Shown: positions 52,398 through 63,662 of the stretch, piece by piece
Layout: every line of letters begins with the position of its first letter
Position numbering within the stretch: the stretch's first letter is position 1
The notes under the pieces: generated by a model
The model's database searches: none
Told to the model about the DNA's origin: nothing
Seen by the model: the letters and a program-made list of their open reading frames with translations, nothing else
Assembly (NCBI RefSeq): GCF_014218725.1
Contig: NZ_JABBJE010000006.1
Span: forward strand, 62,001-126,000
Direction of reading: 5' to 3'
Source of the DNA: Brevundimonas huaxiensis
GTDB taxonomy: Bacteria; Pseudomonadota; Alphaproteobacteria; Caulobacterales; Caulobacteraceae
DNA length: 64,000 nt
Position numbers and translations under genes: made by a program

Positions 52398-53190
52398 AGA
52401 TGCGCGAGGCGCCGTAGCCGGTCAGGGCGGCCAGCACGACGCAAAGCACGCCGTACAGCCACGGCCGACGGTGGGCGAACTCATAGATGTCGCGCTCCAG
52501 CCCGACCTTTTCGACCGTCAGGGTCAGGTTCGACACCGACTGCGGCTCGCCGTCCTGAAACAGCCAGACCTCGGCGTAGTATTTGCCGGTGGGCGCCACG
52601 GTCGGCAGTTTGACCTCGGCGCGGAACAGGCCCCGGTCGACGAACTCGACCCCTTGGGAATCGGTGTCATAGAGGGCGGCGGCCTCCTTCAGCCGGATCA
52701 CGGCGCGGCGCCAGTCCAGATAGTCGTCGCCCAGACGGCTGACGACCACGTCGCGCACGCCGTAGCGGGTGACGGTGCGGCTTTCCTCCGGCGCATCGAT
52801 GCGCAGGTGATCGACGCCGACACCCAGGCGGCGCAGCTGGCCGAAGTCGGCGATGTCGCTGAGCGGGCGGGTCGAGGCCGTCATGTAGAAGCCGGGCGCG
52901 CCCTCGAACAGCACGGGCCGGCTGTTCAGCCAGACACCCGAGGTGCGCGTCTTCTTGACCAGGCGGATCGGCGCGTCCGGCCCCCGCACCACGACCACCA
53001 CATCCGCCGGTTCAGGCGTCGGATTGAATACGGCGCCGTAGAGGACGATCGACGCGCCCCGGAAACTGCTGTCGACCCGGACCTGGGCGTCGGTCAGGGC
53101 GGCGGCGACGCGCAGGTCGCCGGTCGTCGCTTCGGACCGATCGAGCGGCGGGGCCGCAACAGCGGGCGGAGGGGGAGGAAGCGCCTGCAT
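52381..53190 (-). CDS. TIGR02186-family membrane protein
   Basis: The product is 269 residues from the ATG at 53190, which overlaps the exporter stop (TGATG). The domain reads VDSSFRGASIVLYGAVFNP, VVVVRGPDAPIRLVKKTR, and ends with a C-terminal membrane helix (PWLYGVLCVVLAALTGYGAS). The pairing with a TauE/SafE exporter is the typical context of TIGR02186. Relatives are normally exported, but the N-terminus here (MQALPPPPPAVAAPPLDRSE) is not a recognisable signal peptide. Its 3' end overlaps that of gluQ by 17 nt, convergent. Confidence 0.85.
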   Translation of the reverse strand: MQALPPPPPAVAAPPLDRSEATTGDLRVAAALTDAQVRVDSSFRGASIVLYGAVFNPTPEPADVVVVVRGPDAPIRLVKKTRTSGVWLNSRPVLFEGAPGFYMTASTRPLSDIADFGQLRRLGVGVDHLRIDAPEESRTVTRYGVRDVVVSRLGDDYLDWRRAVIRLKEAAALYDTDSQGVEFVDRGLFRAEVKLPTVAPTGKYYAEVWLFQDGEPQSVSNLTLTVEKVGLERDIYEFAHRRPWLYGVLCVVLAALTGYGASRIFSRRS

Positions 53191-54113
53191 CAGTCGGCGA
53201 TCCCCGGCGCGATCATGAAGATGTCGTTGGGCCGCACGAACAGATCCAGCCCCATCTGGATCCCGACCAGAAGCACGATCAAGCCCAGCGCCGCGCGCAG
53301 TTCCTCGGCGCGGAACCGCCCGGCGAACCGCGCGCCGACCTGGGCGCCGACGACGCCGCCGAGCAGCAGGATGGTGGACAGGACGATGTCGACCGTTTGG
53401 TTCCGCCCGGCCTGAAGGATGGTGGTGATGGCGGTGGTGATGATGATCTGGAACAGACTGGTGCCCACCACCGCGCCCGCCCGCATGCGCAGGATATAGA
53501 GCATGGCCGGCACCAGGATGAAGCCGCCGCCCACCCCCATGATGGCCGAAAGCACGCCCGCAAAGACGCCCAGGCCGAACGGCGGCAGGGCGCTGATATA
53601 GAGGCCTGACTTGGGGAACTTCATCTTCAGCGGCAGGCCATACAGCCACATCGGCCGCCGACGCTGCTTGTGCGGCGCGGGCAGCCCCCGGCGGCGGCGC
53701 AGGATTTCCGTCAGGCTCTCGTTCAGCATCAGAATGCCGATGGCGCCCAGGAAGACGAGATAGGACAGGGCCACGACCAGATCGGCCTGGCCCAGCAGGC
53801 GCAGGTAGCGAAACAGCTCGACCCCCGCCAGGGCGCCGGCCGCGCCGCCGGCCGCCATCACCGACCCCATCTTGAAATCGACCGAACCCGCCCCGGCATA
53901 GCGGATGACGCCCGACGTCGAGGAGGCCACGACATGGCTGGCCTGGCTGGCGACGGCGACGGTCGGCGGGATGCCCAGGAACACCAGGATCGGCGCCATC
54001 AGGAAGCCGCCGCCGATGCCGAACAGGCCGGACACGAATCCGACCACCGCCCCCAGAATCACCAGGGTCGGCCAGTTCACCGAAACCTCGGCGATCGGCA
54101 GATAGATGTCCAA
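53190..54113 (-). CDS. TauE/SafE-family sulfite/sulfonate exporter
   Basis: The product is 307 residues if started at a TTG (54113, MDIYLPIAEVSVNWPTLV); a TTG ten codons upstream is the alternative, and no ATG exists. It has about eight helices in two related halves: VGFVSGLFGIGGGFLMAP and AGVLSAIMGVGGGFILVPA, the double GxGGG motif of the family. These proteins export sulfite, sulfoacetate or related anions. The TIGR02186 partner follows directly. Confidence 0.9.
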   Translation of the reverse strand: MDIYLPIAEVSVNWPTLVILGAVVGFVSGLFGIGGGFLMAPILVFLGIPPTVAVASQASHVVASSTSGVIRYAGAGSVDFKMGSVMAAGGAAGALAGVELFRYLRLLGQADLVVALSYLVFLGAIGILMLNESLTEILRRRRGLPAPHKQRRRPMWLYGLPLKMKFPKSGLYISALPPFGLGVFAGVLSAIMGVGGGFILVPAMLYILRMRAGAVVGTSLFQIIITTAITTILQAGRNQTVDIVLSTILLLGGVVGAQVGARFAGRFRAEELRAALGLIVLLVGIQMGLDLFVRPNDIFMIAPGIAD

Positions 54114-54210
54114 AGGACGCGCCTTCGGCTGGAGCGGACACAAGAATCGCCGTCAGGCGGGCGAGGTCGGGGACGACCGGGCGACCGATAGCCGCCCGGC
54201 GCCTGGGAAT

Positions 54211-57057
54211 CTAGCCTGTCGCTTGAGTCTGGGCCTGCGACTGGGCCACGAAGGCGTCGGCGGCGGTGCGGGCTGCGCGCTGGGCCGTGGCGCTGGCCGT
54301 CGGGCGCAGGCGCGTCACGGCGGCCTGGGCCTCCGCATCGCCGCCGCGTGCGGCGATCATGTACCACTTCAGCGCTTCGGTCGGATTCTTGGCCACGCCG
54401 TCGGCGCCGGTCTCATAGATGCGCGCGACGTTGTACTGGCTGTCCGGCAGGCCGCGCTCGGCCGCGTTCAGCAGCCAGGTCAGGGCCTCGGCCTGATTGG
54501 TCGCGCCGCCGTCGCCTTCATAGAGCTGCATCCCATACAGATGCATTCCGCGCGGATCGCCGCCCTCGGCCGCGCGACGGCCCCACTGACGGCTTTGGAC
54601 TGGATCGGCGGGCACGCCATTGGCGCCGTCCAGATACAGCTGACCCAGATAGGTCTGGGCAGGGGCGTAACCCAGGTTGGCGGCGCGCTTCATCCCTTCC
54701 AGGCCTGAGTTGTCGCCGGCCTCCAGCTTGCCGATCGCCGCCTCATAGTCCGCCGCACCGGGGCCGCCGATGTCGAAGGTCGCCTTCGGGCCGGTCGGCG
54801 TCACAGCCGACGCGGCCAGCGGCACTGCGCCGTTTGTCGTCGAGCCGCCGCCGAAGCTGGGCATCTCGAAGTCCGGGGCGCCGCCGTCGGTCAGGGACAG
54901 ATAGCCATAGACGCCCCCGGTCAGGGCGACCGCCGTGACCGAAGCCAGAAAGGTCTTCTTGACCGTCGAGCCGTCTTTTGACGCCTGCCGGTCCAACCGC
55001 TCCTGCAGCTTGGACTTGCCGCCGCGCTTCAGGCCGAAGCCCGACCGGGGCGCAGGTTCCGGCTCGGACGGCGCGGTGATCGCGGCGCGGGCGGCGTCGA
55101 TGGTGCTGCGGGTCGAGGCGGCGCGGCCGGCGGCGGCGGCGGCTTCCATGCTGGAGCGCAGCCGGCGCGGATCCACGAACTCGGTCTCGCCGCCGAAATC
55201 GTCATCGTCCGCGTCCAGGGCAGCCGCGCTGCGCTTTTCGGCCGGTGCGGTCGAGAAACCCGGCGACGTGGCCTCCAGCGCATCCTCGACGTCGGCGCCG
55301 CCGAAACCGCTGAAGGGCTGGATGATGGGCTCGACGCCGTCGGGATCGACCTGGCGCATCGGCATGTCGTCGGCCAGCGCCTCGACGGGCTCGGCCTCGG
55401 TCTGGGCGACGGGCGACGAGGGGAAGGGCGCGGCGGTCGCGACTTCGGGCGTCACCGGATCGCTGGACCAGGCGTCCTGGTCGGTGAAGGTTTCATCGGG
55501 GAAGGCGGCGGCGCGCCAGTCGCCTTCGATGGATGCGGACTGGATCGGCGCCGAGGCGGCGCGTTCCAGCACCTGTCGCGCCGGGGTCCACGCGGGCTCA
55601 TTGTCCAGCGGCTTGTCGCGGATCGGCGTGGGCGCGCGGGCGTCGATGCTTTCGCGGGCCTCGGCCAGCAGACGGGCGGTGCGCTCCTCGCTCAGACGCA
55701 TCCGCTCGGCCAGTTCGCCGGAGGCGCGGTCGTAGCGCTGCTCGATCTTGTCCGAGCTTTCCGACAGGCGTCGGCCGATGTCTTCCAGCGCCTGCTGCGA
55801 GCGGCGCTCGGACTGGGCGATGCGATCGCTCAGCTGGTCCGAGATGCGCGTGATCTCGCCGCCCAGCTTCTCCAGGGCGATGGCGTGGCGATCGTCGCTC
55901 GCGGTCAGGCGTTGGTCGACGCGGTCGACGTGGCGGGCGAACTCCTGGTCCAGACGCGCGGCGCGGCGGGCGACCTCGGTTTCGATAGTCTGGCTGACGA
56001 CGTCGGCGGCGGCGCGGGCGACGGCTTCGGTGCGACCGTCGTTGTCCGTCTCGACCTTCTTGACCCGCGCATTCAGGTTGCGGGCAATGCGCAGGACCTC
56101 GCGGCCCATGGCCTCAAGGCCAATGGCGCCCTTCTCTTCGGACGCCTTCAACTGATCGCCGACGGCCTGGACGGCGCGTTCGATACGGTCGATGCGCGCG
56201 CCCGTTTCGGCGGCGTCCAGGCGCTGCATCATCTCGGCGCGATTGTTGTCGATCTGACGCGACAGGCTTTCGGCCAGTTTCTCGAAACGGGCCAGGTCGC
56301 GCGTGCCTTCCGGCTCGACGCGGCTTTCGGCCGTCCGCATGCGCTGGTCCAGGGCGGCGAACGAGCGTTCCAGCGTCTTCAGGGCTTCGGTCGTGCGGTT
56401 CTGGGCCTCGTCCAGACGCGCGCTGACCTGGGCCAGCATTTCCGTGCCGACGCCGGGGCCGGCGGCCTTCTCGACCGCCTCCATCCGCTCGCGCAGATCG
56501 CTGACGCCCAGACGCTGGCGTTCCTCGATGTCGTACAGGCGCCCGGTCAGCGCGCCCAGGGAAGTCTCGATCTTGCCGAAGGCTTCCCGGGTCGATGGGC
56601 CGGTGTCGCGTTCGAAGGCGCGCAGGCGGCGATGCCCTTCGCGCAGTTCCTCGGCGATGTCGTCGATGCGGCGGGCGGCGCCCTGGGCCTCGGCCTCCTG
56701 GCCGTCCAGCCGGCGCATCAGGCCCGCGACGGCCTGATCCACGCCCTGAATGGCCACGGTCGAGCGACGTTCGGCGGCTTCCAGCCGCGCGGCGATCACG
56801 TCGATGGAGGCGCTGATCCGCTGCTGGCTGTCTTCGACCTCATAGGCGTCGTCCAGACGGCGGCTGCGGTTGCGGCGTTCGTATTCGGCGGCCTGGGAGC
56901 GACGCGGCAGGGTGGCGTAGCCCTCCTCCTCGTCTTCCATGATCATGGAGTTGAGCCATTCGCCCAGAGTCATGCCGGACCGGCGCGCCAGATCCTTGGC
57001 GACCTCGCGTGCTTTGGGATCGATTCCCTTAACGCTCCACGGCGCTGCAGCGCTCAC
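54211..57057 (-). CDS. podJ: PodJ-like polar organizer, C-terminus shortened
   Basis: The product is 948 residues. The start (AAPWSVKGIDPKAREVAKDL) is a PodJ hallmark. Residues about 60-480 are long coiled coil, then a Pro/Ser/Glu-rich linker, one membrane helix at about 702-722 (after KK700-701), and a periplasmic part with three to four Sel1 repeats (about 780-910: GYAPAQTYLGQLYLDG, GDPRGMHLYGMQLYEG, GLPDSQYNVARIYETG). PodJ organises the flagellar/pilus pole. The C. crescentus protein ends in a peptidoglycan-binding domain; here the chain ends within 35 residues of the last repeat. It is alone on its transcript. Confidence 0.9.
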   Translation of the reverse strand: MSAAAPWSVKGIDPKAREVAKDLARRSGMTLGEWLNSMIMEDEEEGYATLPRRSQAAEYERRNRSRRLDDAYEVEDSQQRISASIDVIAARLEAAERRSTVAIQGVDQAVAGLMRRLDGQEAEAQGAARRIDDIAEELREGHRRLRAFERDTGPSTREAFGKIETSLGALTGRLYDIEERQRLGVSDLRERMEAVEKAAGPGVGTEMLAQVSARLDEAQNRTTEALKTLERSFAALDQRMRTAESRVEPEGTRDLARFEKLAESLSRQIDNNRAEMMQRLDAAETGARIDRIERAVQAVGDQLKASEEKGAIGLEAMGREVLRIARNLNARVKKVETDNDGRTEAVARAAADVVSQTIETEVARRAARLDQEFARHVDRVDQRLTASDDRHAIALEKLGGEITRISDQLSDRIAQSERRSQQALEDIGRRLSESSDKIEQRYDRASGELAERMRLSEERTARLLAEARESIDARAPTPIRDKPLDNEPAWTPARQVLERAASAPIQSASIEGDWRAAAFPDETFTDQDAWSSDPVTPEVATAAPFPSSPVAQTEAEPVEALADDMPMRQVDPDGVEPIIQPFSGFGGADVEDALEATSPGFSTAPAEKRSAAALDADDDDFGGETEFVDPRRLRSSMEAAAAAGRAASTRSTIDAARAAITAPSEPEPAPRSGFGLKRGGKSKLQERLDRQASKDGSTVKKTFLASVTAVALTGGVYGYLSLTDGGAPDFEMPSFGGGSTTNGAVPLAASAVTPTGPKATFDIGGPGAADYEAAIGKLEAGDNSGLEGMKRAANLGYAPAQTYLGQLYLDGANGVPADPVQSRQWGRRAAEGGDPRGMHLYGMQLYEGDGGATNQAEALTWLLNAAERGLPDSQYNVARIYETGADGVAKNPTEALKWYMIAARGGDAEAQAAVTRLRPTASATAQRAARTAADAFVAQSQAQTQATG

Positions 57058-57058
57058 T

Positions 57059-57191
57059 GATTCGTCTCCCAGCCCATGCGACGAAGGCTATACCGTCAAT
57101 ATCGAGGGTGTAAACTGATGGTTAACCGCAATATCTAGCAGCGATATTCCAATCCTGTGGACATCGCGCCAGACAGCGGGATTTGTGAATC
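57059..57191. promoter_or_regulatory. two GANTC sites upstream of podJ
   Basis: GANTC motifs, the CcrM methylation target, lie at 57059-57063 and 57187-57191, in the gap upstream of the podJ start at 57057. In Caulobacter, podJ is cell-cycle controlled through GcrA, which acts with GANTC methylation. Two sites in 135 bp is a modest excess over chance. Confidence 0.4.
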
Positions 57192-62021: not shown

Positions 62022-62852
62022 CTAGCTCTTAAGACGCCAGCCCGAGCGGAACACCAGCCAGCAGACCACGCCCATGACCGCCATCAGCACGGCCGACCCT
62101 ATGACGCCGACCGTCAGATTGCTCTCGGCATGGCCGATGAAGCCGTAGCGGAAGCCGTCGATCAGATAGAAGAAGGGGTTGTATCGGCTCAGCGCCCGGA
62201 ACGGCTCGGGCAGGTTCTCGACCAGATAGAAGGTCCCCGACAGGAAGGTCATCGGCATGACGATGAAGTTCTGGACCGCCGACAGGTGGTCGAACTTCTC
62301 GCTCCACAGCCCCGCCAGCACCCCGGTCATGCCCATGATGAAACAGGCGGCCAGGGCGAACCAGACGATGGCGAAGATATTGGCGATGCCCAGCGGCGCG
62401 AACGGCAGCACGCAGATCGCCGTCACCAGACCGACCGCCAGGCCGCGCGTCGCGGCGCCCAGCGTAAAGCCCAGCGTCAGCTCCAGCGGGCTGAGCGGCG
62501 GGGTCAGGAAGTCGGTCGCCGTGCCCATGATCTTGGCCTGGATCAGGCTGGACGAGGCGTTGGCGAAGGCGTTGTTCAACATGGCCATCATGATCAGGCC
62601 GGGCGCGACGAACAGGGCGAACGGCGTGCCGTGCAGCGGCGGCCGCGCGTTCTGAAGCGCCACCACGAACACCAGCATATAGAGCAGCGTCGTGACCACC
62701 GGCGCCGCCACCGTCTGTGCGCCCACCTTCCAGAAGCGACGCACCTCGCGCAGATACAGGGTCTGCACCCCGATCCAGTTGATCCCCGGATAGCGACGCG
62801 GCTGCGGCAGGCCGGCAGGCCGGGTGGAGATCAGATCGGGCGTATCGGTCAT
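62022..62852 (-). CDS. ABC-2 type transporter permease
   Basis: The product is 276 residues from the ATG at 62852 ([18 protein letters not shown]). Six membrane helices follow an amphipathic start; [38 protein letters not shown] and [18 protein letters not shown] are typical of ABC-2 exporters. No ATPase gene is adjacent on either side, so the ATP-binding partner must be elsewhere. The substrate is unknown. Confidence 0.9.
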
Positions 62853-62904
62853 GGCCCGCCAGATGCGCTCGACCGCCGCGCTTCGCAAGGCCGAGGTGAT
62901 TGAT

Positions 62905-63105
62905 GAATCGTGACTGTCCTGCGCAGTCGTCCTGACTCACCAGTCACGCGTCGCCATTCACCAATCCGCCTTAACCTTAACGATGATTCAATATCTGGTT
63001 TCTGTGGACAGGATGATTCGCACATCTTGCGTCTCTTAACGGCTGGTTTACGATTAGTTGTAGGTCAAGACCCCGGAGGGGGAGCCTGGACCTAGATATT
63101 GAATC
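62905..63105. promoter_or_regulatory. cluster of five GANTC sites in the gcrA promoter region
   Basis: CcrM-type GANTC motifs lie at 62905-62909, 62934-62938, 62985-62989, 63015-63019 and 63101-63105, in the gap between the ABC permease and gcrA. About one would be expected by chance in 200 bp. In Caulobacter, GcrA activity and CcrM methylation of GANTC sites control cell-cycle promoters, so this fits methylation-dependent control of gcrA. Confidence 0.7.
63036..63051 (+). promoter_or_regulatory. CtrA-like box upstream of gcrA
   Basis: TTAA, seven bases (CGGCTGG), then TTTAC (63036-63051) differs by one base from the CtrA consensus TTAA-N7-TTAAC. It lies 75 nt upstream of the gcrA start. In Caulobacter, CtrA represses gcrA, so position and direction fit. 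Confidence 0.6.
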
Positions 63106-63125
63106 CAAACTCGCTGGAGGGTGGC

Positions 63126-63662
63126 ATGACCGCAGGCTGGACCGACGACCGCGTAGGCGCGCTAAAGAAGCTCTGGCTTGAGGGCCAGTCCGCGAGCCAG
63201 ATCGCCAAACAACTGGGCGGCGGGGTCACCCGCAACGCCGTGATCGGCAAGGTGCACCGTCTGGGCCTGTCGGGCCGGGCCGCCCCGTCGCAACCGGCGC
63301 GCACCGTCGCCGCGACCTTCCGCACCGCGCGTCCGCGCCCGGCGCCGGCCGCTCCGGCGCAGCAACCTTCGGCCCCGCGCCGTCTGGAAGCCGTCCAGCC
63401 CAAGCCGGTCGAACCCGCAGCCCCCGTCCCCGCCCCGATCCCGGATTTGCCGGGCACGGCGACCGTGATGACCCTGGGCGCCCACATGTGCAAATGGCCG
63501 ATCGGCGACCCATCGTCGCGCGAGTTCAGCTTCTGCGGCCGCCGCTCGTCGGAAGGCGTCTATTGCGTCGAACACGCCCGCGTCGCCTACCAGCCGCAAG
63601 TCCGTCGCGGCTCCAAGGAAAGCGGTTCCGACCTGGCCCGCAGCCTGCGGCGTTACATCTAA
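63126..63662 (+). CDS. gcrA: GcrA cell-cycle regulator
   Basis: The product is 178 residues from the ATG at 63126, with GGAGGGTG just upstream. The N-terminal DNA-binding part reads WTDDRVGALKKLWLEGQSAS, then QIAKQLGGGVTRNAVIGKV. A Pro/Ala-rich linker leads to the conserved C-terminal sigma70-binding domain with CKWPIGDPSSREFSFCGR and GVYCVEHARVAYQP. GcrA activates cell-cycle genes by working with sigma70 at CcrM-methylated promoters. Its presence is strong evidence for a Caulobacterales-type genome. Confidence 0.97.
   Translation: MTAGWTDDRVGALKKLWLEGQSASQIAKQLGGGVTRNAVIGKVHRLGLSGRAAPSQPARTVAATFRTARPRPAPAAPAQQPSAPRRLEAVQPKPVEPAAPVPAPIPDLPGTATVMTLGAHMCKWPIGDPSSREFSFCGRRSSEGVYCVEHARVAYQPQVRRGSKESGSDLARSLRRYI

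Follow-up and report, generated by a model that had tools for sequence, protein, structure and literature searches.

The described systems closest to the DNA upstream of gcrA in our stretch of Brevundimonas huaxiensis (64,000 nucleotides, positions 1-64000, hereafter the window) are the operators of the ATP/dATP-sensing regulator NrdR at S. coelicolor nrdRJ, at E. coli nrdHIEF, nrdDG, and nrdAB, and at S. pneumoniae nrdHEF. As presented in PMC9110341, PMC12176259, and PMC12051234, these operators have in common with gcrA palindromes that end in C and G, lie three or four helix turns apart, and are placed at or over the promoter. The paired 16-bp boxes that NrdR is reported to bind are separated by 14-17 or 24-27 bp, so that their centres are three or four helix turns apart (PMC12051234). 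In the Streptomyces NrdR structure, conserved G:C pairs are found at 9/18 and 40/49, 31 bp apart, and inverting the core-end pairs of one Streptomyces box makes binding approximately 50-fold weaker (PMC9110341). S. pneumoniae nrdHEF is described with three NrdR boxes where gcrA has four NrdR-type boxes. In addition, DnaA binds to E. coli nrdAB, which parallels the DnaA-like site at gcrA. Unlike the known NrdR operators, the region studied here precedes the gene of a cell-cycle regulator and not of a reductase, carries CtrA-like and DnaA-like sites between its boxes, and has a GANTC at three box edges.

The gcrA promoter has itself been studied in other Alphaproteobacteria, with which we compare ours by description. 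In C. crescentus, gcrA is activated by DnaA, with one DnaA box, and repressed by CtrA via a promoter site, and NrdR is no part of the circuit as it is described there (PMC3193534, PMC8959179, PMC4287350). A 2010 motif study missed the DnaA site at Caulobacter gcrA and found it in two relatives (PMC2877005), whereas one DnaA box was counted at Caulobacter gcrA in other work (PMC3193534). The gcrA promoter of Agrobacterium tumefaciens is also dense in GANTC, with six in 250 bp; methylation lowers its activity, in E. coli as well, and a hemimethylation switch has been proposed for it in an account whose consulted portions do not mention NrdR boxes (PMC11514494). Because the effect of methylation is also seen in E. 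coli, methylation may well act on RNA polymerase directly. Finally, MucR, and CtrA on a synthetic promoter, are described as competitors of CcrM that lie over GANTC sites and keep the methylase off (PMC5172544), which offers a possible model for NrdR, albeit with a different regulator.

In the window, gcrA (63126..63662, forward strand, ATG at 63126) encodes a protein of 178 aa that matches PF07750 with 172.6 bits, and the divergent gene (62022..62852, reverse strand) encodes an ABC-2 type permease matching PF01061. GANTC starts at 62905, 62934, 62985, 63015, and 63101, i.e., five times in 201 bp, or at -221, -192, -141, -111, and -25 from the gcrA ATG. This bears out the original prediction of five CcrM sites within about 200 bp of gcrA upstream DNA (62905-63105), and ccrM, on whose presence that prediction depended, is encoded in the genome (358 aa, PF01555 plus RAMA). 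The statement that about one site was to be expected agrees with dinucleotide shuffles (mean 286.55 GANTC per 64 kb, approximately 0.9 per 201 bp), but the actual mean in the window is lower, at 0.19 per 201 bp. GANTC is indeed strongly depleted across the window, with 60 sites found against a shuffle mean of approximately 287, so that the cluster is rarer than had been stated: at least five sites would arise by chance, under a Poisson model, with a probability of 1.7e-6 per stretch and approximately 5e-4 over the whole window. A second spot with five GANTC in 201 bp lies at about 54036-54229 in the same window, spanning the 3' end of a podJ-like gene and the start of an ORF on the reverse strand (53190-54143). 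Two more GcrA-family genes are present in the same genome (C1:860316-860747 and C5:127753-128106), with few GANTCs upstream, and PF07750 also scores over its cut-off in the archaeon Sulfolobus acidocaldarius, a member of our control set.

We aligned 110 gcrA promoters of Brevundimonas, made up of the window, 29 loci, and 80 further ones, 109 of them distinct over the last 200 bp. They come from 131 genomes, 129 of which have a GcrA match; the 21 genomes left out comprise the two lacking a match and 19 in which the match was split, partial, or weaker. The closest named match is Brevundimonas intermedia, at 99%. The expectation that the spacing of the GANTC sites would be kept in relatives held for the inner three, which are found at their aligned places in 63 (62985..62989), 81 (63015..63019), and 108 (63101..63105) of the 110 promoters, and failed for the outer two (62905..62909 and 62934..62938), found in only eight and five promoters, respectively, and both lying on the permease side. 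All three inner sites occur together in 56/110 promoters, and not one of the 110 has none of the three.

Of more interest than the cluster is what accompanies it, a conserved and phased candidate operator of the NrdR type, which we regard as the stronger finding. Each inner GANTC is at the edge of a better-conserved palindrome, CNANATNTNG (C-N-A-N-A-T-N-T-N-G), whose six fixed columns are conserved at 98-100% at box A and at 99-100% at box C across the 110 promoters. The core of box A, CAATATCTGG (62989..62998, within a 16-bp box at 62986-63001), has its first base in common with the final C of the GANTC at 62985, and 107/110 promoters fit CNANATNTNG there. The core of box B, GCACATCTTG (63020..63029), lies 31 bp from A and abuts the GANTC at 63015; all 110 promoters fit NNANATNTNG, a pattern that leaves the first C free. 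Another 31 bp on lies box D, CGATTAGTTG (63051..63060), which is degenerate in this genome and fits CNANNNNTNG in 97/110 promoters. The core of box C, CTAGATATTG (63092..63101, within a 16-bp box at 63089-63104), is 41 bp from D, corresponds to the exact core, and fits CNANATNTNG in 109/110 promoters; its last G is the first base of the GANTC at 63101. The GANTC therefore shares a core-end G:C pair at both A and C. Another near-invariant block in these promoters is TTTACGAT.

We also considered that boxes A and C might pair with each other as an RNA stem or a cruciform, given that, in the window, GATTCAATATC is the exact reverse complement of GATATTGAATC. We find this hardly credible and rejected it, as the 10-bp cores are exactly complementary in just 8/110 promoters and both fit CNANATNTNG in 106/110.

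The palindrome at gcrA resembles the NrdR box. This likeness was tested with a matrix built from 97 nrdA and nrdB sites of Brevundimonas (25 unique) that contains no gcrA or podJ sequence. Upstream regions were obtained for 38/50 nrdB and 47/50 nrdA loci; a 31-bp pair is present in 33 of the 47 nrdA promoters and the exact core in 31 of the 38 nrdB promoters. Within the same genome as the window, both nrdB and glyA-nrdR are preceded by the exact core, and upstream of nrdA there are two cores with one mismatch each, 31 bp apart. Over the 63,985 positions of the window, the matrix placed box A at rank 3, box C at rank 4, box B, taken alone, at rank 87, and box D at rank 768. As pairs, A-B ranked first among those at 31 bp, B-D fifth at 31 bp, and D-C second at 41 bp. 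The 31/31/41 quadruple scored 25.0, the runner-up -16.0, with a layout that was itself taken from this promoter. The spacing of the box centres, 31, 31, and 41 bp, fits the published NrdR geometry (PMC12051234). Across the genome, the exact core shows no excess, with 25 occurrences against 35 for a reversed control, and thus proves nothing by its occurrence alone.

The genome encodes an NrdR (TIGR00244, 177.4 bits) with a Zn ribbon and an ATP-cone, and the protein has D15 and R17, the DNA-reading residues described for the Streptomyces NrdR structure (PMC9110341). That the palindromes belong instead to a different alphaproteobacterial regulator with nrd genes among its targets seems improbable to us. 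The attribution to NrdR does rest on sequence and spacing common to nrdA and nrdB; against another regulator, the core, its C/G ends, and the 31-bp spacing match structurally solved NrdR operators (PMC9110341, PMC12051234), and the core also occurs before glyA-nrdR. MucR was considered as the owner of the palindromes and set aside, as the same core precedes nrdA, nrdB, and glyA-nrdR.

The regulators known from C. crescentus also have candidate sites among the boxes. A CtrA-like box, TTAA-N7-TTTA, at 63036-63050 has one mismatch to TTAA-N7-TTAA, is kept in 92/110 promoters, and ends 75 nt before the ATG, as had been predicted for a one-mismatch box between the GANTC sites; the full TTAA-N7-TTAA occurs at gcrA in none of the 110 Brevundimonas promoters. 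Between boxes A and B, the octamer CTGTGGAC (63002..63009) or its variant CTGTGGAT is present in 109/110 promoters. It is similar to a DnaA box; the DnaA box has the sequence TGTGGATAA, which CTGTGGAC, or its form with T, resembles but does not equal. A possible gcrA promoter on the forward strand (63028..63054) consists of TTGCGT (63028-63033) and TACGAT (63049-63054), 15 bp apart; it was picked by eye from conservation, and its columns are conserved at 91-100% in the 110 promoters. A scan of 62853-63125 with the sigma-70 consensus returned no promoter.

We consider it likely, with good confidence, that the 5' region of gcrA is a four-box NrdR operator in which DnaA-like and CtrA-like sites are interleaved and, in Brevundimonas, CcrM sites are placed at the box edges. 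From the boxes, their match to those of nrdA and nrdB, their spacing, their conservation, and their overlap with GANTC, we infer how NrdR binding, repression, its timing, and a coupling to methylation might operate at gcrA. Boxes A, B, D, and C, at 31, 31, and 41 bp, would all face the same side of the helix and overlap with the likely promoter; the DnaA-like site falls between A and B, and the CtrA-like site between B and D. With ample dATP, NrdR carrying ATP and dATP would occupy pairs of boxes, bend the DNA, and keep gcrA repressed. Once replication had lowered dATP, NrdR would dissociate and DnaA could activate gcrA, until the return of CtrA turned it off again. As CcrM sites are fixed at three box edges, methylation could affect NrdR occupancy and vice versa: the binding of NrdR or of RNA polymerase may change with m6A, or bound NrdR may shield the GANTCs from CcrM.

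The original prediction had read this layout as the one to be expected of a gcrA promoter repressed by CtrA and tuned by methylation. With the density of GANTC itself taken as functional and acting on RNA polymerase or on an activator, we regard this as a possible account whose chances fall somewhat below even. The Agrobacterium promoter described above speaks in its favor (PMC11514494), as do the presence of ccrM, the GANTC at box C in 108/110 promoters with an AATC past the core conserved at 99% per column, and the retention of the CtrA-like box. It does not explain why the GANTC is lost at box A in 47/110 promoters and at box B in 29/110 with the palindromes staying in place, or why the boxes remain outside the genus where GANTCs are often missing or elsewhere; in addition, ccrM is non-essential in B. 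subvibrioides in PYE (PMC7987155). The proposed layout is thus insufficient, since the spacing of the conserved GANTCs follows the better-conserved NrdR-type boxes and few strains have the outer two sites; ccrM and the inner GANTCs are the parts of it that stand, and the CtrA-like box is kept in its one-mismatch form. A functional GANTC density and an NrdR operator can be compatible.

At the other extreme, the conserved GANTCs could be mere by-products of the NrdR-box sequence and lack any function themselves, and their weaker conservation at A and B than that of the boxes would agree with this. We hold it to be unlikely, because GANTC occurs within 5 bp of none of the 64 nrdA/nrdB boxes of the genus, so that an NrdR box does not demand a GANTC, and because the AATC outside the core of box C is as invariant as the core itself. 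The overlap of GANTC and box in Brevundimonas therefore looks to be under selection in its own right.

Beyond the genus, we read the gcrA loci of a second alphaproteobacterial set, L013-L084, hereafter the other loci. It comprises 72 loci, or 71 after removal of L018, a Brevundimonas; L005-L012 were left out of it as Brevundimonas-like, and L013 is probably also present in the genus set (as G074) and so counted twice. The best pair at 30-33 bp before gcrA scored above all 20 shuffles in 105/110 Brevundimonas promoters and in 59/72 other loci. Among the 67 of the 71 other loci with a length of 4 kb or more, the best pair of the whole locus lies at most 300 bp upstream of gcrA in 59, against 3.7 expected (58/66 without L013). 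With column-permuted matrices, the median for the other loci was 20.3 with the real matrix, against a permuted mean of 3.4 and a best of 12.0; in Brevundimonas, the median was 16.1, with a permuted mean of 2.3 and a best of 13.8 among 60, and some permuted matrices thus come near the real one in this genus.

A class-wide set gave a GcrA match in 127/193 genomes, and 68 promoters were read, several of them near-duplicates (28 of 30 listed loci, our own genome and one locus of the same genus being left out, plus 40 chosen ones). Here, the pair reached p<=0.05 in 53/68 promoters and exceeded all 100 shuffles in 43/68, but three sets of control spacings also gave p<=0.05 in 28-32 of the 68 promoters, as one strong box can carry the sum. 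As the pair p-values are non-specific, we put weight on the rank within the locus and on the histogram of spacings.

Among the boxes of at least 7 bits in the 71 other loci, the most frequent spacings are 31 (22 pairs), 32 (16), 42 (14), and 104 bp (14), with further peaks at 73 (12), 63 (11), and 62 bp (10), and just 2 of 164 pairs fall at 20-27, 35-38, and 45-48 bp. These peaks correspond to the six distances of one four-box array. In the class-wide set, 31 (20) and 32 bp (8) are on top and 29 of 100 pairs lie at 30-33 bp. In Brevundimonas, 104 (64) and 103 bp (37) precede 31 bp (25), because box B often scores below 7 bits. Two or more boxes of at least 7 bits are present in all 110 Brevundimonas promoters (1.6 in shuffles), in 57/71 other loci (4.5), and in 40/68 class-wide promoters (6.2). 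The four Caulobacter-named loci are mixed: L025 is strong, L016 just exceeds its shuffles (8.3 versus 7.9), and the box pairs of L017 and L019 do not beat theirs. No credible pair was found in L052, L063, and L081, from Microvirga and Methylobacterium.

The proposed NrdR operator bears on the question of how bacteria couple the start of S phase to dNTP supply. The transition from G1 to S is delayed in C. crescentus when dNTPs are raised, by a mechanism called undefined and independent of CtrA, and deletion of nrdR leads to 10% more spreading on soft agar, synergistically with deletion of fssC (PMC12186491). The authors read the phenotype of the nrdR deletion as an effect of raised dNTPs, and gcrA has no occurrence in the main text (PMC12186491). 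Derepression of gcrA alone would predict the opposite phenotype, so that in C. crescentus the effect on metabolism must outweigh it or the link be a weak one; by our analysis, the phenotypes do not simply fit a repression of gcrA by NrdR. If present as proposed in many Alphaproteobacteria, an NrdR operator before gcrA would connect dATP directly to a master regulator of the cell cycle, which suggests that dNTP supply may help set the advance of the cell cycle, and the GANTC overlap in Brevundimonas would be a meeting point of nucleotide and methylation signals.

We found no paper on the link between NrdR and gcrA: neither gcrA nor podJ is named as an NrdR target in the open-licence literature searched. 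An earlier prediction may exist in RegPrecise or in the supplements of PMC5343134. The latter study of proteobacterial NrdR describes deoxyribonucleotide-biosynthesis regulons and states that NrdR autoregulation was never found (PMC5343134); here, unlike in that study, glyA-nrdR is preceded by a single box. This box is a perfect 20-bp palindrome, GACCACAACATCTTGTGGTC, at C1:907423 of the same genome (L230:2924), and suggests a possible autoregulation of NrdR.

We found a second pair of NrdR-type boxes in the window, upstream of the podJ-like gene (54211..57057, reverse strand; 948 aa, with Sel1 repeats). The pair (57097..57138) consists of the cores CAATATCGAG (57097-57106) and CAATATCTAG (57129-57138), 32 bp apart; the second core is the top-ranking single box of the window and the pair ranks first at 32 bp. 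Relatives of this gene are present in 66/80 genomes of the family, among which 30 promoters were read. All 30 contain a box that scores 7 bits or more (6.3 in shuffles), and 12 contain two or more such boxes (0.3). A weak second box, CTAGGAATCG, which contains a GANTC, occurs in 8/30, and in 22/30 a GANTC starts 6-10 bp before the podJ start. DnaA is said to regulate both GcrA and PodJ in C. crescentus (PMC4287350), and podJ is reported as not regulated by GcrA in B. subvibrioides (PMC7987155).

Tentatively, and with more doubt than belief, we propose that NrdR acts as a direct dNTP sensor that gates both gcrA and podJ by dATP. The Brevundimonas operator would then be a switch that responds to dNTPs and methylation together: NrdR binding would depend on m6A at the box edges, and passage of the fork, by lowering dATP and hemimethylating the operator, would lead to the release of gcrA. 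In a ccrM mutant of B. subvibrioides, 14 direct CcrM targets outside the GcrA regulon rise, from which the authors infer a methylation-dependent repressor (PMC7987155). If our proposal were true, NrdR would be a candidate for this repressor.

Two further sites in the same genome carry similar cores. One, CTATATGTAG, is a single core that may be due to chance and lies just before an ORF of the Pirin family (C4:89475, at about position 976 of L233). At the other, CAACATCTAG (C4:5397, at about position 2398 of L232) is accompanied by a similar core, CAGATATTGA, approximately 33 bp away; both lie downstream of polA, where no gene is called.
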